Assembly: GCF_014681765.1 (NCBI RefSeq)
Contig: NZ_CP061502.1
Coordinates: 1 to 64,000 of the forward strand
DNA from: Roseicitreum antarcticum
Lineage (GTDB): Bacteria > Pseudomonadota > Alphaproteobacteria > Rhodobacterales > Rhodobacteraceae
Direction: 5' to 3'
Length of the DNA stretch: 64,000 nucleotides
The notes under the pieces are model-generated. The model saw only the letters and a list, made by a program, of their open reading frames with translations. It was not told the origin of the DNA and searched no databases. Every line of letters starts with the position of its first letter. Position 1 is the first letter of the stretch. The translations under genes and the position numbers were made by a program. Shown here in pieces: positions 41,197 through 64,000 of this stretch.

Positions 41197-41746
41197 TGGC
41201 GGCACGGGCTGCTTTATCGGATGCCTCACGCACTCCAGAGACCCCGCGCCTGCTTTTGAGCGGTTTGGCTTGCCAATCGAACTCTTGCGCGTGGCGGAAA
41301 ATATTTTTGAGGCGCTGCCGGAGGCTGATGGAAAGGCGTTTTTTGCCGCTTTGCCAGACGCTGTTGGGCGCGACGGCAAAGACCTGAGGCGGGTTGTGTG
41401 GGCGTTTCTTGCGGCTGAATTGCGGGCGCTGCCGAGGACAACCGACGCGGTGCAGGCGGTAATTGATCCTGTCATTGCGGGCATGGATTTGCTTGCTGCT
41501 GGCAAGAATTGGCCTGACGCCGCCCGTGCCGCCTATGCCGCCCGTGCCGCCCGTGCAGCCTATGCCGCCTATGCCGCCGCCCGTGCCGCCTATGCCACCG
41601 CCGATGCAGCCTATGCCGCCTATGCCGCCGATGCAGCCTATGCCGCCTATGCCGCCACCTATGCAGCCCGTGCCGACGCCGATGCCGCCTATGCCGCCCG
41701 ATTGCGCCAGCGCGACACGCTGCTTGCGCTGATCGCCGCCGCTTAA
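41093..41746 (+). CDS. Phage protein ending in an Ala-Ala-Tyr/Arg tandem repeat
   Basis: 217 residues from ATG 41093 (CGGAGACAAAACA upstream). The first 140 residues look folded (MLTKNTEILRAEVERHLAAD, GCFIGCLTHSRDPAPAFERFGLPIELLRVAE). Residues about 143-205 are a tandem repeat of AAY and AAR triplets, coded by GCC GCC TAT/CGT. Such repeats form long amphipathic helices in some phage proteins. Function unknown. The reverse strand also has a long Gly/His/Arg-rich open frame, which is an artefact of the repeat. Confidence 0.7.
   Translation: MLTKNTEILRAEVERHLAADALVKGRYWTAGSGAAGGTGCFIGCLTHSRDPAPAFERFGLPIELLRVAENIFEALPEADGKAFFAALPDAVGRDGKDLRRVVWAFLAAELRALPRTTDAVQAVIDPVIAGMDLLAAGKNWPDAARAAYAARAARAAYAAYAAARAAYATADAAYAAYAADAAYAAYAATYAARADADAAYAARLRQRDTLLALIAAA
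41524..41703 (+). repeat. GCCGCCTAT/GCCGCCCGT tandem repeat
   Basis: Nine-base units with small variations repeated about 20 times within the 41,093 gene, encoding Ala-Ala-Tyr, Ala-Ala-Arg and Ala-Asp-Ala. Prone to length change by slippage. Confidence 0.85.
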
Positions 41747-41782
41747 CCACCCCACACCACAAGCACACACCGGAGAACGACA

Positions 41783-42040
41783 ATGAAAATCACCAAAACA
41801 ATCACCGCCCTGACCCCCACACGGCCACTGACCCGCAACGCTGACGGAGAGATCATCACCCTGCGCCGGGTCCAGGAAATCCCCGCCGACTGGTCGCACA
41901 TGGGTGTCGGTGCAATGCGCGCGCGGATCGCGGAACAGGAAGCGCATGCAGCAAAGCTGGCCGATGAGGCGCGCTGCGAGGCCGATGGATTCATCACGGT
42001 GTACCGGGTGCACGATGCCACTTTTACGGGGTTTAAATGA
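41783..42040 (+). CDS. Small phage protein
   Basis: 85 residues from ATG 41783 (CGGAGAACGACA upstream). MKITKTITALTPTRPLTRNA, then a helix with EAHAAKLADEARCEADG and GFITVYRVHDATFTGFK. Unknown. Ends overlapping the next ATG. Confidence 0.6.
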   Translation: MKITKTITALTPTRPLTRNADGEIITLRRVQEIPADWSHMGVGAMRARIAEQEAHAAKLADEARCEADGFITVYRVHDATFTGFK

Positions 42041-42183
42041 TGGACAATGACATGATGCAGATCCCCGGCTGGGAGGCGCTGATCGACGCCACCGGCACGG
42101 ACGACTGCGCCACGGGCTGCGGCTGGTGGATAGTGCCCAGCGTCCTGGGTGGCGCGGCGATCTGGGCATGGGTGCTGACATGA
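42037..42183 (+). CDS. Tiny phage membrane protein
   Basis: 48 residues from ATG 42037 (ATGA overlap). MMDNDMMQIPGWEALIDATG, then a hydrophobic C-terminal span (GWWIVPSVLGGAAIWAWVL). Unknown. Confidence 0.5.
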   Translation: MMDNDMMQIPGWEALIDATGTDDCATGCGWWIVPSVLGGAAIWAWVLT

Positions 42184-44107
42184 TGGGCCCCATGATTATC
42201 GACAGCTTCGCAGGCGGCGGCGGGGCATCCACCGGCATCGAGGCGGCGCTTGGCCGCAGCCGGATGGCGATCAACCACAATGCGGCCGCACTGGCGCTGC
42301 ATGCGGCCAACAACCCCGAAACCTTGCATCTGGACAGCAACATCTGGGATGTAAAGCCGCTCGAAGTGACGGGCGGGCGGCACGTTGGCTTGCTCTGGGC
42401 ATCCCCCGATTGCAAGCACTTCTCGAAAGCCAAGGGCGGCGCCCCGCGCGATCGCAATATCCGCGACCTCGCATGGATCTGGTTGACTGGCTGAACAGGT
42501 CAAACCCGACGTAATCTGCATGGAGAACGTCGAGGAGTTCGTGACATGGGGTCCGGTCGACAATGACGGCCAGCCGATCAGGAGCTCTCAGGCCAGATTT
42601 TTGAATTGTGGATCAAGCGCCTCAAGGCCGCAGGCTACAAGGTCAAATGGTGTGAACTGCGGGCGTGCGATTATGGTGCGCCGACAATCCGCAGGCGCTG
42701 GTTTCTGGTGGCGCGACGCGACGGCAGGCCGATCCGCTGGCCGAAGCCGACGCACGGCGATCCCAAAAGCCCGGCTGTGAAGCGCGGCAAGCTGCTGCCC
42801 TGGCGCAGCGCAGCCGAGTGCATCGACTGGTCACTGCCGTGTCCCTCGATCTTCGACACAGCCCCCCAGATCAAAGCGCTGCATGGTCTGCGCGCCGTGC
42901 GCCCACTGGCGAACAACACCATGGCCCGCATCGCGCGGGGCATGCGGCGCTATGTGCTGGAGGCTGATCGCCCCTTCTTGGTCAACCTGACGCACGGCGC
43001 ACGGTGCGAACCCGCCGATGAGCCGATCCGCACCATCACCGGCGCGCACCGTGGCGAAAAGGCGGTGGTAGTGCCCAGCATCGTGGGTTGCGGTGGCCGC
43101 GCAGCGCAAAGCCGGGCGCGCGGCGGCTATGAACCACTGGCCACAATGACGGCCAAGGCCGACGCATGCGTGTCGACAGCGTTTCTTGCAACGATGCGCA
43201 ACAGTCAGAAGCCATGGCAGGGCGCAGACGAACCGACGCACACTATCACGGCGGGCGGTGCAGGTCTGACGCTGATCGTGCCCAGCATCACCCGGTTCAA
43301 TTCTGGCGCGACTGGTTCTGATATGGCCGACCCAGCGCCGACCGTCACCGCCAACAGTTGGATCAAGAAGCCGGGCGGGGCAGCGCCGCTTGGGTTGCTG
43401 GCCCATATCTCGCCAGCATCGCTCACGGCGACAGTGGCGGCCGCCGCGAATACCCGATGGCCGATCCGCTGGGCACGGTGGTCGCCAGCAGCGTAAAGCA
43501 TGCACCCTTCGCCGCGTTTCTCGCCACATCACGGCGGGCCCCGAATGGATGGCAACGCGGGCCACGATCCGCGCGACCCTATGTCGCCATCGCCGCCAGC
43601 GGCAGCCACCAGACGCCGGTCGCCGCATGGTTCGCCAAATACTACGGCACCGGCGACGGGGCGCGCACCGACGAGCCGATGCACACAGTCACGGTCAAGG
43701 ACCGCATGGGCCACATGCAGGCCGATCTGGCACCGCCCCCCTTCGCGCCAGAACATGAAGCCAAGGCCCGCGCCGTTGCCGACTTCCTGCGCGCGCACGA
43801 TGCCTGGGCGGGCGGCGAGTTCGTGACGCTGGAAATCGGCGGGCAGACCTTTGTGGTGGTCGACATTGGCATGCGCATGCTGACCCCCCGCGAGTTGTTC
43901 AACGCGCAGGGGTTTCCGGCTGACTACGTCATCGAGGGCGTTTGGCAGGGCGTCGAGACCGATGATCCGACGTTCAAGCCTTTCGCCAAGGACGTGCAGG
44001 TCAGCTGCTGCGGCAACAGCGTCTGCCCGCCGCTGGCTGAGGCCATCGTGCGTGCCAACTGCGCCCATCTGGCAGCGAACATTGAACAGGAGGCCGCACA
44101 TGGCTGA
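42180..44107 (+). CDS. C5-cytosine DNA methyltransferase (frameshifted)
   Basis: ATG 42180 starts MMGPMIIDSFAGGGGASTG (motif I). WASPDCKHFS is the catalytic loop variant of PC, ENVEEFVTWG motif VI, RRRWFLVARRDGR motif VIII, and GNSVCPPLAEAIV motif X. Missing bases near 42,470, 42,495 and 42,590 and one shift near 43,490 split it into three frames; joined, about 640 residues. The long target-recognition part has five copies of a DEPxHTIT-like unit. Probably protects phage DNA from restriction. Confidence 0.75.
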
Positions 44108-45023
44108 GAACAGTAAGATCGAGTGGACCCACCACACTTTTAATCCATGGGAGGGCTGCCAGAAGGTCGGCCCGGGCTGTGACCATTGTTACGCCGAGGC
44201 ACGCGACCAACGGTTCACGGGCGGCGCACACTGGGGGCCGGGCGCACCGCGCCGCCGTACCAGCGCCGCGAACTGGCGCAAGCCGCTGGCGTGGGACCGG
44301 GCGGCACAGGCGGCTAGCGTTCGGCGCCGCGTGTTCTGTGCTTCGCTGGCCGATGTGTTTGACAATGCCGTTGATCCTCAGTGGCGCGCTGATCTGTGGG
44401 AGCTGATCGGCAAGACGCCAAATCTCGACTGGCTGCTGCTGACCAAACGGCCGGGCAACATCGCAGGCATGCTACCTGAGGTGGAGCGCGCCCCTTGGGG
44501 CGAACTTTGGCCCTGGTCGAATGTCTGGCTGGGCTGCACCGTGGTCAATCAGGCCGAGGCTGATCGGGACATTCCCAAGCTGCTGGCGGTGGATGCTGCG
44601 GTGCGGTTCCTGTCGATGGAGCCGCTGCTGGGGCCGGTGGATTTGACGCGCCCTGAGTTCGGCGGCACCTACTGCGCGGTGAATTGCCGCACTATGTGCA
44701 TAGCGCAAGGCGACGAGGAGTGCCCGAAGAACAGCGACCCCGCTCTCGACTGGGTGATCGTCGGCGGCGAGAGCGGCCCCGGCGCGCGCCCGATGCACCC
44801 GGATTGGGCACGGTCACTGCGCGATCAGTGCGAAGCGGCGGGCGTGGCGTTCTTCTTTAAGCAATGGGGCGAATATGAGTCCGATCAGATCGGACGAGAG
44901 GATGCACAGTCTGCCAGTTTTCCACCCGGTCATGTGATTTTTCGCAAAGTAGGCAAGCGCACAGCCGGTCGCAAGCTGGACGGGCGCACATGGGACCAGA
45001 TGCCGGGGATGAGCCATGACTAA
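44100..45023 (+). CDS. Phage Gp37/Gp68-type (DUF5131) protein
   Basis: 307 residues from ATG 44100, overlapping the methyltransferase by 8 bases. IEWTHHTFNPWEGCQKVGPGCDHCYAE has the C-x6-C-x2-C pattern of this family. WLLLTKRPGNIAGML, VRFLSMEPLLGPVDL and WVIVGGESGPGARPMHPDW are further conserved segments. The three cysteines suggest an iron-sulfur site as in radical SAM proteins, but the reaction is unknown. Frequently encoded next to phage DNA methyltransferases. Confidence 0.82.
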   Translation: MAENSKIEWTHHTFNPWEGCQKVGPGCDHCYAEARDQRFTGGAHWGPGAPRRRTSAANWRKPLAWDRAAQAASVRRRVFCASLADVFDNAVDPQWRADLWELIGKTPNLDWLLLTKRPGNIAGMLPEVERAPWGELWPWSNVWLGCTVVNQAEADRDIPKLLAVDAAVRFLSMEPLLGPVDLTRPEFGGTYCAVNCRTMCIAQGDEECPKNSDPALDWVIVGGESGPGARPMHPDWARSLRDQCEAAGVAFFFKQWGEYESDQIGREDAQSASFPPGHVIFRKVGKRTAGRKLDGRTWDQMPGMSHD

Positions 45024-45555
45024 GAACACCACCGCGCCGGAGCTTTTGCCATGCCCCTTTTGTGGGGGCAAGGCAAAGTGGATATCTGGCGGTCCGGGAT
45101 GTACTTACATCAGTTGCATGGCATGTCCGGCAGCAACCGATGACGGGGCGGTACCTCGCATCGCCAAGGCATGGAACACCCGCGCCGACCTTCACGCCGC
45201 ACGCGTGGCTGAACTGGAGATCGCCCTTTCTGAGATGCGGAGGGATCGGGATGTGCGCAAACAGTCTGCCTATGAATACAAATCCCACACCCGCGCAGCC
45301 GAGGGGGCTTGCATAAAACTGGAAGCCGAGCGGGACGCGGCGCGGGCGGATGTCGCGCGGCTGCGGGATGCGTTGCGCGCCGCAGACGGTCACATTGATC
45401 GCGGTCACTACGAAATGGCGCGCAACATCACACGCAGTGCGTCCGCAGGTTCAACGCCGCACTGTTCTGACTGCCCACCCGAAGGCTACCCAACAGACAA
45501 CACCCGCTGCGCGCCGTGTCCGCGTCGGCTGCGGGAAGTAAGGAGAGACCAGTGA
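45016..45555 (+). CDS. lar: Lar-type restriction alleviation protein with a long coiled-coil extension
   Basis: 179 residues from ATG 45016. LLPCPFCGGKAKWISGGPGCTYISCMACPAATDDG matches the zinc ribbon of Lar/restriction-alleviation proteins (about 60 residues). A coiled coil (about 60-125) and a second Cys cluster (HCSDCPPEGYPTDNTRCAPCP) make it three times longer than Rac Lar. Fits with the methyltransferase genes as an anti-restriction set. Confidence 0.68.
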   Translation: MTKNTTAPELLPCPFCGGKAKWISGGPGCTYISCMACPAATDDGAVPRIAKAWNTRADLHAARVAELEIALSEMRRDRDVRKQSAYEYKSHTRAAEGACIKLEAERDAARADVARLRDALRAADGHIDRGHYEMARNITRSASAGSTPHCSDCPPEGYPTDNTRCAPCPRRLREVRRDQ

Positions 45556-45830
45556 ACAAATCCACACTTCCCGCATCACTGACAGAACGCATGGCCCTTT
45601 CGGCGCACGGATACGCGGCAGTGATCGACGGCATAATGAATGTGCGCACCGTGTCATCGTCACCAAACTTCGCCGCCCTGAATGCCCTCTATTTGACGGG
45701 GAAGATTCTGGCTGGCGGCTGTCGCGACCCCGAATGCGATTGCATGGTCAATTTTATGAAGAAGGTAAGCCCGAACATCAAGATTGTGCCGGTTTCGGTT
45801 CACTCCGCCCTGTTCGTTCGCCCCGACTAG
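45552..45830 (+). CDS. Small phage protein near the integrase
   Basis: 92 residues from GTG 45552 (GTGA overlap, AGGAGAGACCA upstream). STLPASLTERMALSAHGYAAVID, then KILAGGCRDPECDCMVNFMKK with three cysteines. Convergent with the integrase; the stop codons overlap. Unknown. Confidence 0.55.
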   Translation: MNKSTLPASLTERMALSAHGYAAVIDGIMNVRTVSSSPNFAALNALYLTGKILAGGCRDPECDCMVNFMKKVSPNIKIVPVSVHSALFVRPD

Positions 45831-47095
45831 AGCGCCAAAGGCTTAAGCAGATCGCGGACCATTTCTAGGTCCGCGCCCCCACCGTAGCGTTCCCGGTTCA
45901 GTGCGTGACCGAACACGTCGCGCCTGATCCGCTCGTCTACCCCGGCGCGCAACATGCGGTCCTCAAAAGAGTGCCGCAGCGAATACATGCTGTGGCCGTC
46001 GCTTTCCAACAGACCATTGGTCCGCAGGTACTTGTTGACCGTGTTGGATAGACCAGCACTATCCCGGTACCGCGGGAAACCATCGGGGAACTGCTTGAAC
46101 GCCTCCAAGCTGACGCCCAAGAGCGGAATCTTGCGCTTGGAATACTGGCTCTTGAGCTGGCGGCCGACGGGCTCAATCGAGATATGTGGCACCGCATGGT
46201 CCAGCCTGATCTGATCGCGCAGCAGGCCTTGGCCTTCGCTGGGCCGATAGCCCGTATTCACCATACCCAGCAGGATCGCGCGCGCCTCAGTGTTCAGGCC
46301 ATCCAGCGCGCCTGGGGCAAGCAACTTGTTCTGTATCCAATCTATTGAGAACGCGGGGCGAGTCTTCTTGTCGCCCTCCTTGAAGCTCAGATCAGATAGC
46401 GGGAGATCCAGCCCGAGCCGCTTCATCTTGTTCACGGTGCGCAAGACGTTGGCGATATGGATCAAGTCTTTGTTCGCGCTGTTTTTTGTCAGACCTTCTG
46501 CGGCGATCTTATCCATCCACCATGAACGGAAATCCAGCATATGGTCCCCTGTCAGGTCAGACAGGGGAATGTCGCCGACCACATCAATCAGGTTGTTGAT
46601 CGCCTTGATGCGTGGGTTTCGCCATCGGCGCTTCTGATCCTCGCTTTTCTGGTCGATCCGGTCCCTTGCGAGATCCCAGAACAAAGCGAGGCACCTCGAA
46701 AGCGTGAGTTGTGGAGGCGGGACACCGCCCAGAAGCGCGTTGGCCTCGCGCATGTCAATAGAACCGTCCTTGCGCGCCACCCGGGATAGCCGGTCAAGGA
46801 ACTCCTCACGGGGTAGTTTGGCAACCGCAGCGGCTGGCAGGTATCGAAATCCACGAATCCCGGCGAGGTTGCGCGCGGCCTCGAACTGCGCTTCAGCATC
46901 GCCCGTGTCGCCGTGCATCTTGGCTTCCCAAGCCTCCAGCATCGAATCCCAGATCGCTGGGGCCTTTCGGCGCGCTACGTCTTCCAGGTCGGTGTGCATA
47001 GACATCCAGACATAGGCGCGCGGCTCCACGTCCTCGTACCGCTTGGGCACACGTCGTCTCAGGTGCAGGGTGCCATTCCGGCTCACAAATTTCAT
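45827..47095 (-). CDS. int: Tyrosine-recombinase integrase
   Basis: 422 residues from ATG 47095 (MKFVSRNGTLHLRRRVPKRYE, the usual N-terminus of Arm-binding integrases). A central SAM-like core-binding domain (about 140-250) and a catalytic domain with NTGYRPSEGQGLL (first Arg), SLRHSFEDRML (His-x-x-Arg) and the nucleophile in RYGGG. Drives insertion into the adjacent tRNA-Ser gene. The start lies about 140 bp from the tRNA 3' end. Confidence 0.88.
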   Translation of the reverse strand: MKFVSRNGTLHLRRRVPKRYEDVEPRAYVWMSMHTDLEDVARRKAPAIWDSMLEAWEAKMHGDTGDAEAQFEAARNLAGIRGFRYLPAAAVAKLPREEFLDRLSRVARKDGSIDMREANALLGGVPPPQLTLSRCLALFWDLARDRIDQKSEDQKRRWRNPRIKAINNLIDVVGDIPLSDLTGDHMLDFRSWWMDKIAAEGLTKNSANKDLIHIANVLRTVNKMKRLGLDLPLSDLSFKEGDKKTRPAFSIDWIQNKLLAPGALDGLNTEARAILLGMVNTGYRPSEGQGLLRDQIRLDHAVPHISIEPVGRQLKSQYSKRKIPLLGVSLEAFKQFPDGFPRYRDSAGLSNTVNKYLRTNGLLESDGHSMYSLRHSFEDRMLRAGVDERIRRDVFGHALNRERYGGGADLEMVRDLLKPLAL

Positions 47096-47236
47096 GGCTG
47101 ATTTATGGCTCTTGGCACAGAGTCGCGCAAGCCCCATTTGTGATGCAAAATGATCCGAATTGTGCAGCAAAAACGGAAGTCGATCCATTTTCGCCTTGCC
47201 ACCGCATTGTTTTCATTCGCTTTATTCAGAAGTTTT

Positions 47237-52837: not shown

Positions 52838-53908
52838 TCAGACCTGTTGCGCGTGCCGCGCCAGCGCCATCGCATCACGCATCACACACGCGGCATCGTA
52901 CCAGTGCGGCAGGCGCTGCCCGCCCGCGCGGCTGGCAGCAGCCATGCCCGCGCGGTGATCCACGTCGGTCAGCAGCCGCGCCAAGGCATCCGTGAAAGCG
53001 GGGGCGTCATCTGGTGCAGTCAGTGCAGCGGCCGCTGAAGGCACATGCTGCGGCACCGCGCCGACGGCGCAGCTAACCATGGGCAGACCGTAAAGCTGGG
53101 CCTCGCTCAGCACCATGCCGTATCCCTCATACCGCGTGGCCAGCGCAAAAACATGCGCCTGCCGCCACAGCTGGTCAAGCGTCTCTGCCGACACCTCGCC
53201 GGTGAAGCGCACGCGCCCCTCCAACCCAAGGGCAGCGCGCTGGTGCAGCAGGGCCTGGTACACGCCCTCATCATGGGTCATGCCGACGATGGCCGCCTGC
53301 CAGTCCAGATGCCGCAGCCGAGCCAGCGCGTCGAGCAGCACGTCATGCCCCTTGCGCCGACAAATCAGCCCGACCGACAGGATGAGCGGCGGGTCGGCAG
53401 GCGGCGTCTGCACAACCCCTGTGGGCGGGCGGTCAAAGCCCGGGGGCGCAACCGATATCCGATCAGCTGGCACACCGAACTGCGCGATCAGAATGTCGCG
53501 CGTATGGGCCGAGGGTACGACGACATGTGCGGCGTGGCGTAGATTGTCGCGTTCGCGCGCGATCAGTGCGGCAGCGCGGGCGGGCGGCAGCCCGGCCTCC
53601 AGCCCCAGCGGGTGGTGCAGCATGGCCACAACCGGACAGGCCAGGCTGGCCAGCACCTCGGTGTCGATGGAGCCAAAGACCAGCCCGTCAAGGATCAGCA
53701 CGGTATCTGGCCCCAACGCGCGCAGCCGGGTCGCCGCATCGCTGATCGCTGCATCGGTAGGATCGGGAAAGGACGAGATCAGCGGGATATATTGAACGGG
53801 CTGTCCGACCTGCGGCAAGCTTTCAAGCATCCGGCGCTCATAAATGTAACCGCCAGTGCGGGTATTCAGATCGCCAGGAATGGCGAAGGCGCCGTTTATG
53901 GGAATCAT
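52838..53908 (-). CDS. GT4-family glycosyltransferase
   Basis: 356 residues from ATG 53908 with GAGGGG upstream, 3 bases after the double permease. PGDLNTRTGGYIYERRMLESL (acceptor domain), HAAHVVVPSAHTRDIL, PLILSVGLICRRKGHDVLLDAL and ALATRYEGYGMVLSEAQLYGLPMVS (the E-x7-E donor motif). A cytosolic retaining glycosyltransferase. Being the last gene in an ABC-transporter operon is unusual; donor and acceptor unknown. Confidence 0.85.
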   Translation of the reverse strand: MIPINGAFAIPGDLNTRTGGYIYERRMLESLPQVGQPVQYIPLISSFPDPTDAAISDAATRLRALGPDTVLILDGLVFGSIDTEVLASLACPVVAMLHHPLGLEAGLPPARAAALIARERDNLRHAAHVVVPSAHTRDILIAQFGVPADRISVAPPGFDRPPTGVVQTPPADPPLILSVGLICRRKGHDVLLDALARLRHLDWQAAIVGMTHDEGVYQALLHQRAALGLEGRVRFTGEVSAETLDQLWRQAHVFALATRYEGYGMVLSEAQLYGLPMVSCAVGAVPQHVPSAAAALTAPDDAPAFTDALARLLTDVDHRAGMAAASRAGGQRLPHWYDAACVMRDAMALARHAQQV

Positions 53909-53911
53909 GGT

Positions 53912-55663
53912 TCAGCCCCTCAGTTGTTCGGGCGCGACGCGGGCCAGCACCGCACGCTCTGCCCAGCCCACCAGCGCATAGCCAAGTGCGGACCCCAGTG
54001 CCACGACCACCACCGCCGACCACAGCAAGTTGTAATCCGAGGTCGAGGCCGTCAGCGCCATCAGGTTGCCCAACCCCGTGCCAGTGGCCAGCCATTCCGC
54101 CACCGTCACCGCCAGCACGGCAGCGGGCACCGACATGCGCGCGGCGGCGAAGAAGGCGGGCAGCATGGCAGGAACCTGAGCATGCCACAACCGGGCCCAG
54201 CGGCCCGCACCATAGGTGGCCATCACGTCCAGCACCTGCCCGGGTGCCTGTCGCAGCCCGTGCAGGCAAGCGACCAGCGCGGGAAAGAAGATCATCACTG
54301 CCACGATGGTTACAGTCCCCACACTCTCACGCCCCAGCGCCAGCACAATCAGCGGCGCGGTGATGACAATGGGAACGGACCGCAGCGCCACGGCCACCGG
54401 CATCAGCACGCCCGAGGCGACGGGCGACAGCGCCAGCGCCATGGCCAGTCCCGCGCCCAAGGCCAGCCCCGCCAAATAGCCCGGCAGCACATAGACCAGC
54501 GATTGCGCCGTCGCCGACCACAACACCGCCCGGTTGGCTGCGGCTTGCGGCGCGGCAATCAGATAGGTCCACAGGTCATCAGGGCGCTTGGCGAAGAAGC
54601 GCGGCAGGGACAGCGCCTCCATCACCAGCCACCAGATTGCCAGCAGCACCGCGAGTGTCAGCGCAGCCGTAACCGGGCCACGCAGCCACCGAATACCCGC
54701 GCCACCCGGGGCGCTGACGGCGGGAGGGGCCAAAAGGACCTCTGGCCGGGCAGGGGCCAGCGCGTGCGCGATCCGGCCAAGCGCGCCATAGGCCAGCATC
54801 GCCGCACCCGATGCCACCGTCGCGATCGCCCATGTGGCAGGGGTGTCGAGGCCGCGCATCGCGCGCAGGGTCAGCACGCCCAGCCCGCTTTCCGCCCCAG
54901 TGAACTCGCCCACCATGGCCCCTAGCAGGGCAGCAGGGGCGGCAATTTGCAGGCCCGCCATCAGATAGGGCAGGGCGGCCATCAGCCGGATCTGCACGAA
55001 GGCCGTCCAAGCGCCCCGCCCATACAGGCGAACCAGATCGAACAGGCTGGCGGGTGCGGCGCGCAGGCCCACCAACAGCGGCACGAAAGTCGTAAAGAAC
55101 ACGGCCAAGGCCGCCAGCGTGATCTGCGGCCCCGGCCCCGGGCCATAGAGAACACGCAAGATCGGCCCCGTCGCCACCAGCGGCAGGCAAAACACCACCA
55201 GCGCCAGCGACGCGACCACGGGTGCGGCACGCGGCAACAGCGCCACAATCAGCGCCAGCCCCACCGCCGCCAGATTGCCCGCAACAAAGCCCCAGCCCGC
55301 ATTGGTAAGCGTGATACCCAGCGCGCGCGCAATCAGCCCCGTATTCTCGGCGAGGTAGTGCGCCACCTCCCAAGGCCCGGCCAGCAGATAGTTGCCAGCA
55401 AGCGCCCAAGCTGCCCCTTGCCAGACCATAAGCGCGACGGCAATTCCTGAAAAAAGCGGCAGCGCCGGGTTGCCCTCAATGCTCCGCCCGCCCGCTTGCG
55501 CGCCGTGACCCTGCGCGGCGGTAGCACCAAAAGCCGACGCCGCTTGCAGCGTCCCAGTCATCGAAGCGGGGGCCGCAGCGCCGTCGGAAACGGCCCTTTC
55601 CCCGTCCGGTCTGGAGGCAGCACCTCGGCTTTCGCCCTGGGTTGCGGCGTTTCTTGATGTCAT
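53912..55663 (-). CDS. Single-chain double permease of an NMT1-type ABC transporter
   Basis: 583 residues from ATG 55663. Two BPD_transp_1 domains in tandem: the first about 90-300 with LGITLTNAGWGFVAGNLAAVG and loop EAA motif (GAMVGEFTGAESGLGVL); the second about 330-575 with VAEWLATGTGLGNLMALT. Related SsuC/TauC/ThiX-like permeases usually form homodimers, so this fused chain is atypical. The N-terminal 70 residues are a Gly/Ala-rich cytosolic extension, perhaps a wrong start. Confidence 0.82.
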   Translation of the reverse strand: MTSRNAATQGESRGAASRPDGERAVSDGAAAPASMTGTLQAASAFGATAAQGHGAQAGGRSIEGNPALPLFSGIAVALMVWQGAAWALAGNYLLAGPWEVAHYLAENTGLIARALGITLTNAGWGFVAGNLAAVGLALIVALLPRAAPVVASLALVVFCLPLVATGPILRVLYGPGPGPQITLAALAVFFTTFVPLLVGLRAAPASLFDLVRLYGRGAWTAFVQIRLMAALPYLMAGLQIAAPAALLGAMVGEFTGAESGLGVLTLRAMRGLDTPATWAIATVASGAAMLAYGALGRIAHALAPARPEVLLAPPAVSAPGGAGIRWLRGPVTAALTLAVLLAIWWLVMEALSLPRFFAKRPDDLWTYLIAAPQAAANRAVLWSATAQSLVYVLPGYLAGLALGAGLAMALALSPVASGVLMPVAVALRSVPIVITAPLIVLALGRESVGTVTIVAVMIFFPALVACLHGLRQAPGQVLDVMATYGAGRWARLWHAQVPAMLPAFFAAARMSVPAAVLAVTVAEWLATGTGLGNLMALTASTSDYNLLWSAVVVVALGSALGYALVGWAERAVLARVAPEQLRG

Positions 55664-55678
55664 GCTTGGGGCCCCGGC

Positions 55679-56545
55679 CTATTGCGCCGCGTGGCGTTCA
55701 GCAACGCCGGGTTCGTCCCAGCCCTGCGCCAGCGCGGCACTGATCCGCGCCTCCAGCGCCAGCGCGGCCTCGCCACCCGGGGTCAGGTCGCGCGGCACCG
55801 CCACGTCGGCCACGACACGCGCGGGACGACTGGACAGCACGATGACACGGTCGGCCAATACCACAGCCTCGCGGATGGAATGGGTGACCATCAGCGTCGT
55901 TGTTGCCCCGGTGCGCCACAGGGGCGGCAAGTCGGCGTTCAGCCGCGCGCGGGTCAATTCGTCCACAGCGCCGAAAGGTTCATCCAACAGCAGCACCCGG
56001 GGGTGGGTGACCAGACAGCGCGCGATGGCGGCACGCTGGCGCATCCCGCCCGACAGCTCGGCCGGGCGCGAATCCTCGAACCCGGCCAAGCCCACGCGGG
56101 CGATCATCGCATCCACCGCCGCGCGGTCAGCGGGCTGGCGCGCCAGTGTCAGGGCCAGTGCCACATTGCCGCGCACCGAGCGCCAGGGCAACAGCGAGGC
56201 ATCCTGAAACGCCATGGCCAGCGCACCCTGACGCTGAAGCGTCTGCGGGCTGGCCCCCCCGATAGATATCGTGCCAGTCCCGGGCGGCTCCAACCCCGCC
56301 ACCATACGCAAGAGCGTCGATTTCCCACAGCCCGAGGGGCCGACCAGCGCAGTCATCTGCCCTGCGGCAAATTGAAGGTCGGTCCGGGCCAGAACCTCGA
56401 CTGCGCTGGAGCCTTCGCCGAAAGTCTTGGACACATCAGAGCAAACGATGCCCGGCGCCACTGCGTTCGTGGGCCGGGCGTCTGCCGTGTCGCTTTTGGG
56501 GTCAGGAACCGCAGGCGCCATGACTGATGGACCCGTATCAGCCAT
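55679..56545 (-). CDS. ABC transporter ATPase (NMT1/SsuB/ThiZ-like)
   Basis: 288 residues from ATG 56545, chosen because GGATGAGG precedes it and it overlaps the SBP stop. Walker A GPSGCGKST (about 69), Q-loop FQDASLLPWRSV, signature LSGGMRQRAAIARCL, Walker B VLLLDEPFGAVDE, switch His THSIREAV. The partner of the fused permease. Confidence 0.87.
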   Translation of the reverse strand: MADTGPSVMAPAVPDPKSDTADARPTNAVAPGIVCSDVSKTFGEGSSAVEVLARTDLQFAAGQMTALVGPSGCGKSTLLRMVAGLEPPGTGTISIGGASPQTLQRQGALAMAFQDASLLPWRSVRGNVALALTLARQPADRAAVDAMIARVGLAGFEDSRPAELSGGMRQRAAIARCLVTHPRVLLLDEPFGAVDELTRARLNADLPPLWRTGATTTLMVTHSIREAVVLADRVIVLSSRPARVVADVAVPRDLTPGGEAALALEARISAALAQGWDEPGVAERHAAQ

Positions 56546-57530
56546 GCACCTCATCCAGAATGCTGCGGTCCCACAGATCGGCGCTTACCGGGGTGCCCAG
56601 CAGGGCCAGCGTCTCGATATTCTCGGCAACGGTCTCCTCCGTGAACCAACCAAAACCGTTCGCTTCCGTCAGGTCTGAAAACATCAGCGGCACTTGGCGG
56701 CGCGCCTGTTCCAGCTGCGCGGCACGGTCGAGGCCTGCATCAGGGAAGCGCGCCAGCGTCAGGTCGGTCGCGGCATCGGTGTCGGTGAGGTAATCGGACC
56801 AGCCGCGCGCCTCACCCGCCAAAAGGGCCACCAGATCGGCGCGCCGGCTGGACAGTGAGTCATCCGTGGCAATGTAGGTTTGCGAGTGCAACTTGTAGCC
56901 GTAATCGGCCATGAGCATCGTAACGCTCTCGATGCCGCGCACGAACATCGACACCGGCAGATCGGTAGACCAGCACAGCAGACAATCCACCTCACCGGCG
57001 ATCAGGGGGGCGGCATCGTATTGCGTCGGTACAATGGTGATCGCGTCGAAATCCACATCGTTCAGGGTGCACAGGGTGCGCAGCACCGGCGTATTCGCGG
57101 TGGCCATGCCAATGCGCTTGCCCTCCAGATCGGCGGGGGTATTCACCGGGTTGCCGGGCAGCGAAGCGATGGCGAAGGGGTTGTTTTGCATCGCCACGCC
57201 AATGATACGGAAGGGTGCACCCTGCTGCACGGCGGCAGCGGTGTAATCGGCGGCTGAGATACCGACCAGCGCCGTGCCCGCGACCACGGGGGGTTCGACC
57301 GGTGCGTTCGGCCCGCCGCTGTCCAGCCGCACGGACAGCCCGCGATCAGCCCAATAGCCGCGCTCATCCGCAAGATAGCTGCCCGCGAATTGCACCGAAT
57401 GCAGCCACGACAGCTGCAGCGCCACATCGCGTTGCTGCGCCATGGCGGGGCGCGCACCAACGGCCCAACCGCCGAGGCCCGCCAACCCCATGCCGATCAG
57501 GTGCCGACGCGAAATGTCAAATCTGGTCAT
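56538..57530 (-). CDS. NMT1/THI5-like periplasmic binding protein with Tat signal
   Basis: 330 residues from ATG 57530. Tat-type signal SRRHLIGMGLAGLGGWAVGA. Mature part: VALQLSWLHSVQFAGSYLADERGYW, then GTALVGISAADYTAAAVQQG, KRIGMATANTPVL, VDCLLCWSTDLPV. This is the NMT1/THI5 family used for thiamine precursors, riboflavin, sulfonates or polyamine-like compounds. Substrate undetermined. First gene of a four-gene operon (SBP, ATPase, permease, GT4). The 171-bp upstream gap holds no TPP-riboswitch consensus. Confidence 0.85.
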   Translation of the reverse strand: MTRFDISRRHLIGMGLAGLGGWAVGARPAMAQQRDVALQLSWLHSVQFAGSYLADERGYWADRGLSVRLDSGGPNAPVEPPVVAGTALVGISAADYTAAAVQQGAPFRIIGVAMQNNPFAIASLPGNPVNTPADLEGKRIGMATANTPVLRTLCTLNDVDFDAITIVPTQYDAAPLIAGEVDCLLCWSTDLPVSMFVRGIESVTMLMADYGYKLHSQTYIATDDSLSSRRADLVALLAGEARGWSDYLTDTDAATDLTLARFPDAGLDRAAQLEQARRQVPLMFSDLTEANGFGWFTEETVAENIETLALLGTPVSADLWDRSILDEVHG

Positions 57531-57701
57531 GTTGTGTCCCATTCGTTTGCTTCGCTGGAGAAAGTTCGGTTAGAAAAGGATAGAGGCGATGCCCCGTGTT
57601 TCAACCCAGCCGCTGACTTTCAGTTCCCTGGTGATGCCGCTCCGGGCGGATGTACGCGCAGATGCCGTGCGAAAAGGCGGTTTGGGCGTCAGGGGGGCTG
57701 C

Positions 57702-60332
57702 TCAGGCGGCGGTTCTTCCGGACGCATCAACGGTTAACTGCCGGTCGGGCACATCCCGCGTCGCGGCAGGACTGGATGCTTCACGCAGCACGACCAATCG
57801 GTAGGACATGATCCCGGCGCGATGCGCCTGCGTCAGAGCATTGCCGCCGATCATGTTGGCGAAGAGGGGAACCCGCGCAAGCCCCAGTGTATCGGCCATT
57901 GGCCCGGCCAGCCGTAGCGCCTGGTCCCGCCAGCGGTTCAGCCGCAGCATGGGGCTGAGATCAGTCTGGTCCAGAAGGCGATAACCCATCCCCTCCGCCG
58001 CCGCGACCAGCCCCTGCGCCGGTGTAACATGGCCCAGCCGCCAACCGCGCCGGAAGGCGGCGACCAGCCGTGCGGCCCGGTAGTCCAGCGCAGACACCGG
58101 GTGCGCCAGCATGTCGTCGATAATAACCAGCACCCCACCGGAGGCGATATGGGCGTGCGCACTGCGCAAGAAGCCAGCCGCGCTGTCCGCATGGACGTGG
58201 CTTTCGATGGCGATCACCAGATCGGCGCGGGGCAGGGTGGTGGGCAGGCCGAAATCACTGCGCAGCACGCGGATGCGTGACGCCATGCCGCGTGCTGCTA
58301 CGTGGCGCTCGGCCAGCCGCACCTGCTCTGCGCTGAGGGTCAGCCCGCTGAGTTCGGCCTGCGGCCAGCGCGTGGCCAACTGCAGCAAGGTGCCGCCCAC
58401 GCCGCAACCCAGATCGCGCACCCGTTCCGGCGGGCGCCCCAGCGCGTCCTCAGCAGCGCGTGCGACGAGGGTGTTTACATGGGCTGCCGCGGCCTCGGCA
58501 TCGGCGATGCCCGGCGCCCAGAGTGGGCGGTGAATGGCCAGCGCCGCGCCACTTCCGCCCAGCTTCAGGAAACGCCGGGTGCTGGCGTCGTAATAAGCAG
58601 CGATCGGGTCGCCGGACGCCGCCGCTGCGCAGCGCTGTGGCCGCGGGCCGTCAAACCAGCGGGTCAACCGGGGCGCGACCAGCAAGGGAACAACAATCGG
58701 CATGACCATCAGCGCAGCCACCAGCGCGCTTCGCCATCCGACCGCAGACGCGGTGTCGGGGGCGCCGCTACCCGGCGCCGCGGTGTCAAAACCTTCCGCA
58801 ACCATGCTGGCGCCGCCGCCGATCAGCAGTTGCGGCAGGGTCACGGCCAACAGGATAGCCAGGCCGGACGCCACCTCGGCCCGGCCCGGGACCAGCGCAC
58901 GCGGGCCAGAGGTGCCTGCGGGCACCCAGCCGCAGTCGCGCCCCGACAGCACCGACAGCACCGCCCCAGTACGCCGGATCAGGCCGAGGGGGGCAAGCAG
59001 GGTCGACAAGACCAGTTCCGCCCCGACGCTGCGCCAGATCACACGGCGGCGACGCGGCCAAAGCGCCGCCCGCCCATAAGACGCAGCACCCGCCAGCTTC
59101 GGCACCATCAACAGCCCCATCGTCCCCGCGAGGGGCCAGAGCGCCGCCCCCGTCATATGCACCGCGCCCGACCCGGTCAGTAGTACAAGCGCCAGCCAGA
59201 TCGGGGCGGAAAGATAGCTCTGGATACCCGCCAGCAGATGCAGGCGGCTGGCCGGGTGCAGCCCCGGCCCCGCGATCAGCAGCAGGTGTTGCAGATTACC
59301 CTGCGCCCAACGCCGATCGCGGCGCAGATGGGCGGCGATCGTGTCGGGCGCATCCTCGAAACTGCCACGGCTGTCGGGAACGATCTGCACCGCCCAGCCC
59401 GCGCGGCGCAGGTAGGCCGCCTCAATGAAATCATGGCTCAGGACCGGGCCGCCGAAGGGCGGGCGGCCGGGCAGCGGCGGCAGGTCGCAAACCTGCGCGA
59501 AGGCTGCCCGACGCAGCAGCGCGTTATGGCCCCAGTAATTGCCCGCATCGCCGCTCAGCCGCGCGAGCCCGCGCGCGAAAACCGGTCCGCAGAGGCGCCC
59601 GGAAAGGCGTTGCACCCCCGCGAAGCGGCTAGGCGCGGGGCGCAGCCGGATCGCGGATTGCAAAAGGCCAAGGCACGGGTCGCATGCCATCTGGGAACGC
59701 AATTCGGCCAGCCGCGTGGCGCTGAAGGTGCTGTCAGCATCCAGCACCAGCATCGTCTCAAACCCCGCGCCATACTGCTCCAGCCAGTCGCGCAGATTGC
59801 CTGGCTTGCGGCCCGTTGGCGCGGTGCGGTTGCGATAAGTGATCTGCCCGGCAAGCGGGCCAAGCACTGCCACCTCTTGTGCCCGCGCATCCGCACCCCG
59901 GGTGTCGGACAACACGAAAATCCGGCAACCGGCATCCTGGCCCGTCTGGCGCAGGCCCGTCAGCATGGCACCAATCCGGCGCGCCAGTGGCGCGGGGTCC
60001 TCACCGCAGGTCAGCCACAGGATCGCGCAGGGACCGGGCGCTTCGTCCCGCGCAGCATCATGTTCTGAAAGCCGGACGGGCAGCGCAGGGGCCACGACTG
60101 CGCGCGGCGACGGATCGCGAGCATCCGTGTCCCGTGCCATCCCCATAAGCGCGGTCACCGCAGTGCCCGCCAGCCAGACGGTATTGACCGCGAACAGCAC
60201 AAGCACAAGCGCACTGAGGCCAGGATGCGTCGCGCCCCTGTCCAGCCCGTACCAAAGCGCCAAAACCAGCAGCGCGCTGAGCGCCGCTGTGGCGATCATC
60301 TGCCAACGGCGCAGGAGGGCGCCCCGCTTCAT
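57702..60332 (-). CDS. opgH: OpgH-type glucosyltransferase fused to a SAM-dependent methyltransferase
   Basis: 876 residues from ATG 60332 (TGATG overlap with cytochrome b561). Residues about 1-560 are OpgH/MdoH: two N-terminal membrane segments, GRKPGNLRDWLEQYG and LVLDADS (198-200 DAD), NYWGHNALLRR, SHDFIEAAYLRRAGW, and RDRRWAQGNLQH (338-346; Q/RxxRW motif), then four to six C-terminal membrane spans. Residues about 575-860 are a class I methyltransferase with DLGCGVGGTLLQL (640), LSGLTLSAEQV and IAIESHVHAD. E. coli OpgH has 847 residues but no methyltransferase. It would make periplasmic glucan and perhaps methylate it or its lipid carrier (inference). Confidence 0.85.
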   Translation of the reverse strand: MKRGALLRRWQMIATAALSALLVLALWYGLDRGATHPGLSALVLVLFAVNTVWLAGTAVTALMGMARDTDARDPSPRAVVAPALPVRLSEHDAARDEAPGPCAILWLTCGEDPAPLARRIGAMLTGLRQTGQDAGCRIFVLSDTRGADARAQEVAVLGPLAGQITYRNRTAPTGRKPGNLRDWLEQYGAGFETMLVLDADSTFSATRLAELRSQMACDPCLGLLQSAIRLRPAPSRFAGVQRLSGRLCGPVFARGLARLSGDAGNYWGHNALLRRAAFAQVCDLPPLPGRPPFGGPVLSHDFIEAAYLRRAGWAVQIVPDSRGSFEDAPDTIAAHLRRDRRWAQGNLQHLLLIAGPGLHPASRLHLLAGIQSYLSAPIWLALVLLTGSGAVHMTGAALWPLAGTMGLLMVPKLAGAASYGRAALWPRRRRVIWRSVGAELVLSTLLAPLGLIRRTGAVLSVLSGRDCGWVPAGTSGPRALVPGRAEVASGLAILLAVTLPQLLIGGGASMVAEGFDTAAPGSGAPDTASAVGWRSALVAALMVMPIVVPLLVAPRLTRWFDGPRPQRCAAAASGDPIAAYYDASTRRFLKLGGSGAALAIHRPLWAPGIADAEAAAAHVNTLVARAAEDALGRPPERVRDLGCGVGGTLLQLATRWPQAELSGLTLSAEQVRLAERHVAARGMASRIRVLRSDFGLPTTLPRADLVIAIESHVHADSAAGFLRSAHAHIASGGVLVIIDDMLAHPVSALDYRAARLVAAFRRGWRLGHVTPAQGLVAAAEGMGYRLLDQTDLSPMLRLNRWRDQALRLAGPMADTLGLARVPLFANMIGGNALTQAHRAGIMSYRLVVLREASSPAATRDVPDRQLTVDASGRTAA

Positions 60333-60889
60333 CAACGCCCGCCGACCGGCGGCCAGATGCGCGAAAACACCCCATCTCGCTGCACCAGATGCTTCAGTCC
60401 CGCCGCGACATGCAGCGCGACCAGCGCAATCAACCCGAAGCGCGCATAGGAATGAATGGTCTTTGCCACCCCGGCCAGCGAGTCCGAGCGGGGTACCAGC
60501 GACGGCATGCCGATGGCATCCAGCATCTCGATCGGAAAGCCCCCCGCCGCGACCCGAACATAGCCGCTGAGCGCCATGACCAGCAGCAGTATATAAAGCG
60601 CCGCTTGCGTCAGGCCCGCCGCCCGCACCTGCCAGCGCGGCAGCGAAGCGGGTAGCGAGGGCGCGCGGTGCGTGGCCCGCCAGACCAGCCGTAGCAGGAC
60701 CAGCGCCAGCAAAATCACCCCACCGTTCTTATGCATGACAAACAGCAGGTTCTGCTGGGCACGCGGCAGCCCTTCGGTCTGCATATAGATGCCGATGGGG
60801 ATCATAGCCAGCACCATGAGAGCCACTAGCCAGTGCAGCAGCCGGGTGGTTGCGGCATATTTCAATGGCCGCTCGTAGGTCGCGTTCAT
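60332..60889 (-). CDS. Cytochrome b561-type membrane protein
   Basis: 185 residues from ATG 60889, chosen for GGAGGGCGG upstream rather than an upstream GTG/TTG. TTRLLHWLVALMVLAMIPIGIYM has the first heme His. KNGGVILLALVLLRLVWRATH, AALYILLLVMALSGYVR, SYARFGLIALVALHVAAGLKH hold the others. Four spans with the usual His positions. Moves electrons in the membrane; often near YceI genes, but here coupled to OpgH, unusual. Confidence 0.87.
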   Translation of the reverse strand: MNATYERPLKYAATTRLLHWLVALMVLAMIPIGIYMQTEGLPRAQQNLLFVMHKNGGVILLALVLLRLVWRATHRAPSLPASLPRWQVRAAGLTQAALYILLLVMALSGYVRVAAGGFPIEMLDAIGMPSLVPRSDSLAGVAKTIHSYARFGLIALVALHVAAGLKHLVQRDGVFSRIWPPVGGR

Positions 60890-61031
60890 GCTATCCGCCC
60901 TCCGGTTTGCATCACAGGGTGTTATCATTGCCAACCAGATGAGATAGGGCAGCGGCGCGCAAGGCAAGCCTTGGCGCGACAAATGGACGTGCCGCGAAAG
61001 ATGAAAGAAACGTGATCGCCGCGATGCGGCG

Positions 61032-61060
61032 TTGACAATCATGTAACGCAAGCAATCTGT
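61032..61060 (+). promoter_or_regulatory. Possible promoter for the rightward envelope operon (leaderless)
   Basis: TTGACA at 61032-61037, 17-bp spacing to AATCTG-like -10 (61055-61060). The ATG at 61,066 would be at or near the first transcribed base, and no ribosome binding site precedes it, consistent with leaderless translation. The 175-bp gap also serves the leftward cytochrome b561/OpgH operon. Confidence 0.4.
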
Positions 61061-61065
61061 ACCTC

Positions 61066-61863
61066 ATGTCACAAATTGCCCGCGCTCGCGCCAGACCCCC
61101 CGTTGTCCTTGCCCCGCCCCGCCGCCGCGTTCAGTGGCAGGCGGCGTTGTTGCTGACCCTGCTCATCCCTGCGGCATCACTGGGAAGTTTTGCGCTGGCC
61201 GGGACCGCAGGCGCACGCGGACCGATAGTTCCGGCGATGATTACGCTGATGATCTGCCTTGCAGGCGGCGCCTTGGTGCTGCGCGGCTTGGCACCCGGCA
61301 GATACCCGCACGCCCGGCTGGGTCTTTGCAATGTCATCACCCTGTCGCGTGCGGCGGGCATCGCTGTCATGGCTGGGCTGATCGCCGCGCCCGGCGCGCT
61401 GAGCGGCCCAGAAGCCTTGGGATGGGCGCTTGTCGCGCTGTCGGCATTGGTGTTGACGCTGGATCTGGCGGACGGCTGGGCGGCGCGGCGGTCTGGCCTC
61501 AATTCCACCTTCGGCGCGCGGTTCGATGTTGAATCCGACGTGGCCTTCGCGGTTGTTCTGGCGGTGCTGGCCTGGCAAGCCGACAAGGCGGGGGTCTGGT
61601 TTCTGACGCTCGGCGCGCTGCGCCCCGCGTTTTTGATGTCCAGCCTGATCTGGCCATGGCTGAGCGGCGCGCTGCCCGATGCAATGTGGCGCAAGACAGT
61701 CGCGGCGGTACAGATGATCGCGCAGGTGGTATTGCTGGCCCCGGTAGTGACCCCCCCGGCCTCTGAGGTGTTGGCCGCACTGTTGCTGGCCGGGGTGGCC
61801 CTGTCCTTCGCGGTCGACATCCGGGCGCTGCATGCGCGTCGGGATGTGGTGCACGGGGTATGA
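61066..61863 (+). CDS. CDP-alcohol phosphatidyltransferase
   Basis: 265 residues from ATG 61066. The catalytic motif D-x2-D-G-x2-A-R-x8-G-x3-D-x3-D is complete (residues 133-158, DLADGWAAR then GARFDVESD). Six or so membrane segments. Transfers a phosphatidyl or similar group from CDP-lipid to an alcohol. Acceptor unknown: glycerophosphate, inositol phosphate or a sugar alcohol are possible. Overlaps the next gene as ATGA. Confidence 0.88.
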   Translation: MSQIARARARPPVVLAPPRRRVQWQAALLLTLLIPAASLGSFALAGTAGARGPIVPAMITLMICLAGGALVLRGLAPGRYPHARLGLCNVITLSRAAGIAVMAGLIAAPGALSGPEALGWALVALSALVLTLDLADGWAARRSGLNSTFGARFDVESDVAFAVVLAVLAWQADKAGVWFLTLGALRPAFLMSSLIWPWLSGALPDAMWRKTVAAVQMIAQVVLLAPVVTPPASEVLAALLLAGVALSFAVDIRALHARRDVVHGV

Positions 61864-63512
61864 GTGGCCGGATCGCGCCACAAGCCATCGCAAGGCACAT
61901 CCTGGCTGCGGCGGTGCTGTATCTGCTGCTGATCCAGCCAAACCATCCAGCCGCGATGACATGGGGCGCACTGCGCGCCTTTCCGCTGGAATTGCCGGTG
62001 ATCCTGTCGCTGCTGGTCCTCACCGGAAACGGCTGGACGGGGCGCGTGCTGCGCGCGGTGCTGATAACGCTCTTGATGGCGGTTGCGCTGCTTAAGTTGG
62101 CAGATTTTGGCACGTTTGTCGCATTCAACCGCGGGTTCAACCTGTTGGTGGACCTCAACCTGCTGCATGCGGGGTGGACCTTGGCGCAGGGCACATTCGG
62201 CATGGCGCTGGCCATGCTGGCAGGTTTGGGCGCTTTGGGCGCGCTGGTACTGATGGCCGGAATGTTGTGGTGGGCCACCGGTGTCTGGGCGCGGCACGGC
62301 CGCCCCGGCTGGCTGCGCGTCACGGCGGCAATTCTGATCCTGCCCGCCACGGTGGCAGCGGTGGCCGAGGTCGGACAAGCGCGGCGCCTGTGGTCCCTGC
62401 CCGCACCTGTCGCCGATGCAATCCCCGGTGCCGCCTTCACCGCCCGGCTCGCTCTGGAACGTGTGATGCAATTCGCCGAGACACGCGCCGAACTCGCCGC
62501 CTTCCGCACGGCAGCGCGCACAGATCCAATGGCGGGCGGCGGTCCATTTCTTGACCTTGCGGGCGACCGCGATGTGATCTTGATCTACGTCGAAAGCTAT
62601 GGACGGGCGAGCTTTGACAACCCGCTCTACCGCCCCACCCATAGCGCTACCCTGCGCCAGATCGGCGCCGACTTGGACGGCCGGGGCCTTGCCATGCGGT
62701 CGGGCTGGGCAGTCGCGCCGATGACCGGGGGGCAAAGCTGGCTGGCGCATGGCACCGTCGCCTCGGGGTTGTGGCTCGACGATCAGGGCCGCTACCGCGC
62801 CCTTCTGGCCAGCGAGCGCCAGACCCTGTTCCACTATGCCAGTGCCAGCGGGCGGCGCAGCGTGGCGATCATGCCCGCACATGTCTTCCCTTGGCCCGAG
62901 GGCGCGTATTTCGGTTTCGACGCCATCTACAACGCCCCCGATCTGGGCTACGAGGGGCAACCATTCAACTGGGTCACCATGCCGGACCAATTCACCCTGA
63001 CCGCGCTGGACCGGCTGGAGCGCACGCGTCCGCAAGGCACGCCCGGGCGCGATCCACTTCTGGCGCAAGTGGCGTTGGTATCATCGCATGCGCCATGGGT
63101 TCCGATCCCGCCGGTGATCGACTGGGAGGCCGTGGGCGACGGTACGGTCTTCGACCCTTGGGCGACCTCGGGCGATCCCCCCGATGTGGTGTGGCGTGAC
63201 CATGACCGGGTGCGCGAACAATACCGCCGCGCCATCGACTACAGCCTACAGACCGTGGGATCATGGGCGGCGCGCCATGCGGACAACCCACCGCTGATCA
63301 TCATGCTGGGCGACCATCAAACCGCAGGATTCGTGTCCGGTGTGACCGGGTTCGATGTGCCGGTGCATATCATCGGCCCGCCTGATCTGGTCGCGCGGTT
63401 CGACGGTCCTGGCTGGCAGGCTGGGATGTTCCCCGATCCCGCTGCGCCCGCGCTGCGCATGGATGCAATGCGCGATGTCATCCTGCGCGCCCTGTCCTCG
63501 GACGCACCATGA
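61860..63512 (+). CDS. Membrane-anchored sulfatase/phosphatase-superfamily protein (LtaS/OpgB-like)
   Basis: 550 residues from ATG 61860. Residues 1-180 contain four or five membrane spans. The periplasmic part has VILIYVESYGRASF (first metal Glu 245), PMTGGQSW (nucleophile position, about 290), and IIMLGDHQTAGFV (metal site about 484), in the order of LtaS/OpgB-type phosphoglycerol transferases. It may transfer phosphoglycerol or phosphoethanolamine to an envelope glycan. Sequence divergent enough that the reaction is not certain. Confidence 0.78.
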   Translation: MSGRIAPQAIARHILAAAVLYLLLIQPNHPAAMTWGALRAFPLELPVILSLLVLTGNGWTGRVLRAVLITLLMAVALLKLADFGTFVAFNRGFNLLVDLNLLHAGWTLAQGTFGMALAMLAGLGALGALVLMAGMLWWATGVWARHGRPGWLRVTAAILILPATVAAVAEVGQARRLWSLPAPVADAIPGAAFTARLALERVMQFAETRAELAAFRTAARTDPMAGGGPFLDLAGDRDVILIYVESYGRASFDNPLYRPTHSATLRQIGADLDGRGLAMRSGWAVAPMTGGQSWLAHGTVASGLWLDDQGRYRALLASERQTLFHYASASGRRSVAIMPAHVFPWPEGAYFGFDAIYNAPDLGYEGQPFNWVTMPDQFTLTALDRLERTRPQGTPGRDPLLAQVALVSSHAPWVPIPPVIDWEAVGDGTVFDPWATSGDPPDVVWRDHDRVREQYRRAIDYSLQTVGSWAARHADNPPLIIMLGDHQTAGFVSGVTGFDVPVHIIGPPDLVARFDGPGWQAGMFPDPAAPALRMDAMRDVILRALSSDAP

Positions 63513-64000
63513 AGGCGGCAGGGCGCGGTCTGATGCTAGCTGTGGTGCGCTGGGTCGTCACGCTGGGTGCGCTGGTTCTGGTGTTTCGCGTGCTGGGCAC
63601 CGAGGCGATCGTGACGCAGTTGCGGGCAGTATCGCTGCCATGGCTTGTGATGGCGGTAGGCGCACTGACGCTCCAGATCGCGCTGTCGGCAGCGCGCTGG
63701 CGGATCACGGCGGGCGCTGTCGGCCTTCAGGTGGGGCGCGGACAGGCGTTGCGCGAATACTACCTGTCGGTGCTAGGCAACACGGTACTGCCCGGCGGCG
63801 TGCTGGGCGATCTGGGGCGGATCGCACGGCTGCGCCATCAAGCCGGGGTGGGGCGGGCCGCACAATCGGTGGTGATCGAGCGGCTGGCAGGCCAGATTGC
63901 GCTGTTTGCCGTGACGGGTCTCGGCGCGGTGGCGTGGTTCTGGCCGCATCCAGCTGCACTGGCCGGGGCGATTGCGCTTGTTGCCGGCGGCTATGGCATG
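63509..64000 (+). CDS. LPG-synthase-like transmembrane protein (flippase-like), C-terminus off the right edge
   Basis: ATG 63509 (ATGA overlap) reads on to the window end, 164 residues. WVVTLGALVLVFRVLG, PWLVMAVGALTLQIALSAARW, REYYLSVLGNTVLPGGVLGDLGRI and VVIERLAGQIALFAV are the first part of the LPG_synthase_TM (UPF0104/YbhN) family. Such proteins move lipids or lipid-linked sugars across the membrane. Third gene of the operon. Confidence 0.85.
   Translation, partial: MKAAGRGLMLAVVRWVVTLGALVLVFRVLGTEAIVTQLRAVSLPWLVMAVGALTLQIALSAARWRITAGAVGLQVGRGQALREYYLSVLGNTVLPGGVLGDLGRIARLRHQAGVGRAAQSVVIERLAGQIALFAVTGLGAVAWFWPHPAALAGAIALVAGGYGM

Follow-up and report, generated by a model that had tools for sequence, protein, structure and literature searches.

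The window, that is the whole 64,000-nucleotide stretch of Roseicitreum antarcticum DNA that was analysed, carries on its reverse strand (57702..60332) a gene in which an OpgH-type glucan synthase is fused to a methyltransferase (MT); the fusion lies on a 425-kb contig (C5) of a 4.25-Mb genome. The reading frame is intact over 876 codons up to the stop at 57702, and the ATG at 60332, which gives a protein of 876 residues, is preferred as the start over the TTG at 60335, which gives 877. This ATG shares bases with the stop codon of the upstream cytochrome b561-family gene (60332..61051, reverse strand; PF01292 and synteny), forming a TGATG overlap, and the two genes are therefore probably co-translated.

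The OpgH/MdoH part (58641..60332, reverse strand; NF003962, AlphaFold2 and hydropathy) consists of two N-terminal membrane helices, a GT2 catalytic domain and a C-terminal membrane region, such that membrane helices flank the glycosyltransferase domain on both sides in the AlphaFold2 model and in the hydropathy profile. Residues 5-478 score 442.7 bits against the MdoH model of NCBIfam, NF003962, the cut-off being 328. The catalytic DXD, SHDF and (R/Q)XXRW motifs are present as DADS, the donor/metal-binding motif (59730..59741), SHDF (59427..59438) and RDRRW (59307..59321), all on the reverse strand, and are retained in all fused relatives. The MT domain (57705..58613, reverse strand; Pfam, AlphaFold2 and closest solved folds) is SAM-dependent and stands where ordinary OpgH has its C-terminal tail. 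Its residues ~635-740 match the Pfam families Methyltransf_25, Methyltransf_12 and CMAS, all above cut-off, and its SAM-binding motif I, DLGCGVGG (58392..58415, reverse strand), is invariant in the alignment of 13 homologues. This confirms the original prediction that an OpgH-type synthase core, with its membrane region, is joined to a class I SAM methyltransferase in one frame: both profile matches are present, and all the named motifs have been located. Structure prediction gives a good AlphaFold2 model of the MT domain (pLDDT 87.1, pTM 0.86), which shows a Rossmann fold; the model of the whole protein is moderate (mean pLDDT 76.5, pTM 0.62), and for this reason the placement of the domains is not to be read from it. 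In the alignment with its relatives, the stretch between the last two membrane helices (58720-58810) is about 25 residues longer in the window protein.

Among solved structures, the MT model is matched best by AtmM and RebM, the glucose O-methyltransferases of indolocarbazole antibiotics, which act on the 4'-OH. Across the 13 sequences of the MT family there are 76 invariant columns, including DLGCGVGG, ES-VH, DDML and FANMIGGN. In the window protein, the last histidine of IESHVH (58191..58208, reverse strand), invariant in the 13 homologues, aligns with the second histidine of the RebM sequence ESLHHM, and the invariant first aspartate of IDDM (58110..58121, reverse strand) aligns with the aspartate of RebM IADFVL; these RebM residues are presumably its catalytic residues. 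The fused MT shares with RebM and AtmM the best-matching fold, the SAM motif and the aligned histidine and aspartate, but the identity is only ~24%, RebM and AtmM are small-molecule enzymes of antibiotic pathways that are not fused to a synthase, and the C-terminal motif FANMIGGN is particular to the MT family described here. The AtmM/RebM-like fold group also includes the N-methyltransferase MitM, which shares the histidine, the sarcosine/dimethylglycine methyltransferase, also acting on nitrogen, and prenyl diphosphate C-methyltransferases. Since the fold is shared by N- and C-methyltransferases, and the histidine by MitM, these features leave the substrate unfixed; judged by the modelled structure, the evidence leans towards a glucose O-methyltransferase.

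It might be argued that the fusion is only apparent, a stop codon between two genes having been lost through an error of sequencing or assembly. The MT part was scanned against one genome per species (~85,000), and this search yielded 12 convincing relatives and a weak thirteenth match. The same fusion is found in six other Rhodobacterales assemblies. In five of these (L014, L015, L017, L018 and L025) it is encoded in one intact frame, with linkers that differ in length and in sequence. In the sixth, the MT locus L016 begins at a contig end within the linker, and an OpgH of the same genome (G683), L042, runs off the end of another contig; because an APDR-type linker repeat is present both at the end of L042 and at the start of L016, we infer that the two are one fusion split by the assembly. 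The linker of this fusion is the repeat (HAPDRAPDHAPER...) that broke the assembly, and linker length varies widely among the relatives. The recurrence of the fusion with different linkers rules out a lost stop, an explanation that no observation favoured and to which we assign next to no probability. Among the other long OpgH frames of the family (L054, L065, L076, L078 and L079), no methyltransferase was found.

In three further loci (L019, L020 and L021) the genes are separate and arranged in the order opgH, MT, opgG; the opgH stop overlaps the MT start in L019, and the spacing is 2 bases in L020 and 11 in L021. An ATGA overlap joins the MT coding sequence to opgG in L014, L016, L018, L025, L019 and L021. 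In the tree of the OpgH part, rooted on ordinary OpgH, all ten MT-associated OpgH proteins fall into one clade (100/100), in which the three split-gene proteins branch first and the seven fused proteins form a nested clade (100/99); long branches were flagged in this tree, among them that of the canonical OpgH of the window genome, which lies outside the clade of interest. The MT tree is poorly resolved and compatible with the same history. The most parsimonious history is a single fusion within an opgH-MT-opgG operon.

In the fused relatives the genes follow the order b561, opgH-MT, opgG and then a GT4 glycosyltransferase, and the divergent side encodes a CDP-alcohol phosphatidyltransferase, a sulfatase-superfamily membrane protein and an LPG_synthase_TM protein. 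As in canonical proteobacterial opgGH(C) loci, opgG adjoins opgH in this arrangement, but an MT is added, and the fused group also has the b561, CDP-alcohol phosphatidyltransferase, sulfatase-like, LPG_synthase_TM and GT4 genes. The window keeps the b561 gene, the CDP-alcohol phosphatidyltransferase gene of the divergent operon (61066..61863, forward strand; PF01066 and synteny) and, downstream of the fusion, the GT4 gene (52838..53908, reverse strand; PF13692/PF00534 and synteny). The start of the LPG_synthase_TM gene lies at 63509..64000 (forward strand; PF03706 on L006:5509-6423), the gene extending to position 64423 of contig C5. Between these is the gene of a membrane protein of the sulfatase/alkaline-phosphatase superfamily (61860..63512, forward strand), a possible phospho-headgroup transferase, assigned by synteny and by its L018 orthologue, which matches Pfam Sulfatase at 27.7 bits; no Pfam or NCBIfam model matched the window protein itself. 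This protein and its orthologues are a candidate new type of glucan phospho-headgroup transferase. Genes of an NMT1/THI5-type ABC transporter (53912-57542) separate the fusion from the GT4 gene in the window, and an NMT1-type transporter lies between opgG and the GT4 gene in L014-L016; in L018 and L025 the GT4 gene directly follows opgG without transporter genes, and the transporter therefore looks inserted into the glucan cluster.

This neighbourhood bears on the substrate. The CDP-alcohol phosphatidyltransferase and the sulfatase-superfamily membrane protein conserved beside the fusion could mean that the MT has a lipid or phospholipid headgroup as its substrate, for instance by N-methylating one of the ethanolamine type, and that the sulfatase-like protein then moves this headgroup to the glucan, much as OpgB and OpgE move phosphoglycerol and phosphoethanolamine from phospholipids onto E. 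coli glucans (PMC3818809); the occurrence of the MT fold in N-methyltransferases would suit such a role. We nevertheless regard it as unlikely, because the fusion partner of the MT is a polymerase and not a lipid gene, the MT lies between opgH and opgG in the split loci, the ~5 kb upstream of opgH in L019 has neither a CDP-alcohol transferase nor a sulfatase-like gene, and the best-matching folds are those of glucose O-methyltransferases.

In every relative whose contig is long enough, opgG adjoins the MT; at the window locus it is absent, and the position it has in the relatives by synteny is a gap (57543..57701), 159 bases in which no opgG remnant was found. Exactly one opgG is present in each of seven genomes checked, the copy beside the MT being the sole opgG of the six relatives tested, and the nine Rhodobacterales relatives tested have one opgH each, counts that include several incomplete MAGs. 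In Rhabdonatronobacter sediminivivens and Roseinatronobacter domitianus, accordingly, the sole OpgH is the MT-bearing one. Being single copies, the MT-linked OpgH and its opgG partner would constitute the glucan system of these relatives. The window genome has two opgH genes, and its sole opgG lies on contig C1, where an ordinary opgG-opgH pair and an opgC-like membrane acyltransferase gene are found at L007:6541-11330 (C1:184541-189330). As this ordinary set is also present, the window genome may make two kinds of glucan. With no opgG adjoining its gene, the window protein either depends on the OpgG from C1 or is a leftover copy. The ordinary set on C1, the loss of opgG beside the fusion and the presence of one opgG for two opgH genes could indeed be signs that the fusion is decaying in this genome, which would be compatible with any substrate proposed for the MT. 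Such a decay is improbable in our view, as all 876 codons and all the motifs are intact and pN/pS is about 0.5 for the OpgH half and 0.4-0.5 for the MT half. Between the window and its relatives the values are 0.46-0.55 and 0.40-0.52, respectively, so both halves are under purifying selection, as a long-term average that a recent loss of function would escape.

Outside these loci, the MT is found as a stand-alone gene, away from opgH, in three MAGs (two of Wenzhouxiangella and one of Geminicoccaceae). These MAGs also hold opgH or opgH fragments elsewhere; as about half of the family has opgH (76 of 149 members), this co-occurrence is weak evidence. The neighbours of the stand-alone MT genes are uninformative with respect to function, being housekeeping genes (in L022 presumably dapD/dapE, truA, fmt and def) or genes of cytochrome c, DUF3108, porin and metal ATPase proteins, and a distantly related MT (L083/L084), from a genome of the same family as the Geminicoccaceae MAG, is likewise set among unrelated genes. 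The stand-alone occurrence shows that the MT is able to work untied to OpgH, as would be expected if it acted on UDP-glucose, a primer or another small molecule instead of the glucan chain and the fusion merely delivered it to the membrane. The opg linkage in all 10 of the 10 Rhodobacterales loci and the closest folds, which are glucose O-methyltransferases, speak against this reading, which appears distinctly unlikely.

Seven hydrophobic segments are predicted from hydropathy, and a cytoplasmic C-terminus requires that one of them is interfacial. If the intervening hydrophobic helix is interfacial, as in cellulose synthase, the basic loop that precedes GRDxGW would fit on the cytoplasmic side, and the C-terminus of the fusion should then be cytoplasmic, as is SAM. 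For OpgH of E. coli, the prediction is that the C-terminal extension is folded into the cytoplasmic domain (PMC11389396). OpgH polymerises the linear β-1,2 backbone from UDP-glucose (PMC3818809, PMC4726272). In the proposed mechanism, the OpgH part would use UDP-glucose on the cytoplasmic side to build β-1,2-glucan and pass it across the membrane, and the MT at the cytoplasmic C-terminus, with SAM at hand, would O-methylate a glucose of the protein's own glucan. The likeliest site would be the terminal glucose of the growing non-reducing end, since a cytoplasmic enzyme reaches a processively extruded chain mainly at this end. A methyl group on the 2-OH would stop elongation and set the chain length, as with WbdD; on another hydroxyl it would be a decoration. 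The exported glucan would then be processed by OpgG.

The original prediction had suggested either a methylated glucan or a methylated lipid carrier. Its link to glucan synthesis is strengthened by the split opgH-MT-opgG loci, the adjoining opgG and the sole opgH of the relatives; on this analysis a methylated glucan would be the best reading, and the lipid carrier appears less well supported. On the combined evidence of genome context and fold similarity to glucose O-methyltransferases, we consider it somewhat more probable than the contrary that the fusion is a bifunctional periplasmic-glucan synthase which methylates a hydroxyl of its own glucan, with the non-reducing end as the likeliest site and a chain-length cap as a possible role. 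It shares with OpgH/MdoH (NF003962 and siblings) the whole synthase core with the DAD, SHDF and RDRRW motifs, the membrane region and, in the relatives, the opgG partner, but differs in having an MT for the ordinary C-terminal tail, in forming a clade of its own and in lacking opgG at the window locus.

WbdD of E. coli O8/O9a is a membrane-associated methyltransferase whose methyl caps the O antigen and controls its chain length, and its MT domain resembles RebM (PMC3482155). If the methyl of the fused MT caps the non-reducing end, the two would work in the same way, but WbdD is a separate protein with a polymannose substrate and, in O9a, a kinase domain and a coiled coil; no kinase domain was found in the window fusion by the Pfam scan. 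WbdD is a possible functional parallel, and the comparison implies no kinship beyond the class I fold.

The glucan substituents described are succinyl, acetyl, phosphoglycerol and phosphoethanolamine, and methyl is not among them (PMC3818809, PMC4726272). A literature search found no paper linking OpgH with a methyltransferase. Cyclic glucans of Azospirillum reportedly carry 2-O-methyl groups. To our knowledge no enzyme has been tied to the methylation of the OpgH-made periplasmic glucan, so that the fused MT would be the first. The known substituents are added by separate enzymes; here, if the proposal is true, the modification would be built into the polymerase and would take place in part on the cytoplasmic side, which would also offer a simple way of testing what determines chain length.

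The MT family is rare (three of 296 in the family, one of 398 in the phylum, this being the window itself, and two of 250 in the Wenzhouxiangella order). Its carriers are mostly from soda lakes, an assignment that leaves out the MAGs of L015 and L020: Rhabdonatronobacter and Roseinatronobacter are haloalkaliphiles, and DLM2 and LCM1 are presumably Canadian soda-lake samples. The CSSed and B1Sed MAGs, matched by their sample-name prefixes, are from Cock Soda Lake and Bitter-1, both soda lakes of Kulunda (PMC6146748). This bias suggests an adaptation of the envelope glucan to high pH or salt. Methyl ethers resist alkali and acyl esters do not, and we hypothesize that the methyl ether is linked to alkaline life. 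A tentative and rather doubtful extension is that the MT caps non-reducing ends inside the cell, thereby setting the glucan length, and that the methyl ether may in addition matter by surviving an alkaline periplasm, which succinyl and acetyl esters would not.

Elsewhere in the window, the stretch 40718-47188 is phage-like by eye, with DNA-methyltransferase-like, phage Gp37/DUF5131-like and tyrosine-recombinase-like frames, and one protein within it has an alanine/tyrosine-rich tail of AAYAARAA-type repeats (~41400-41746).
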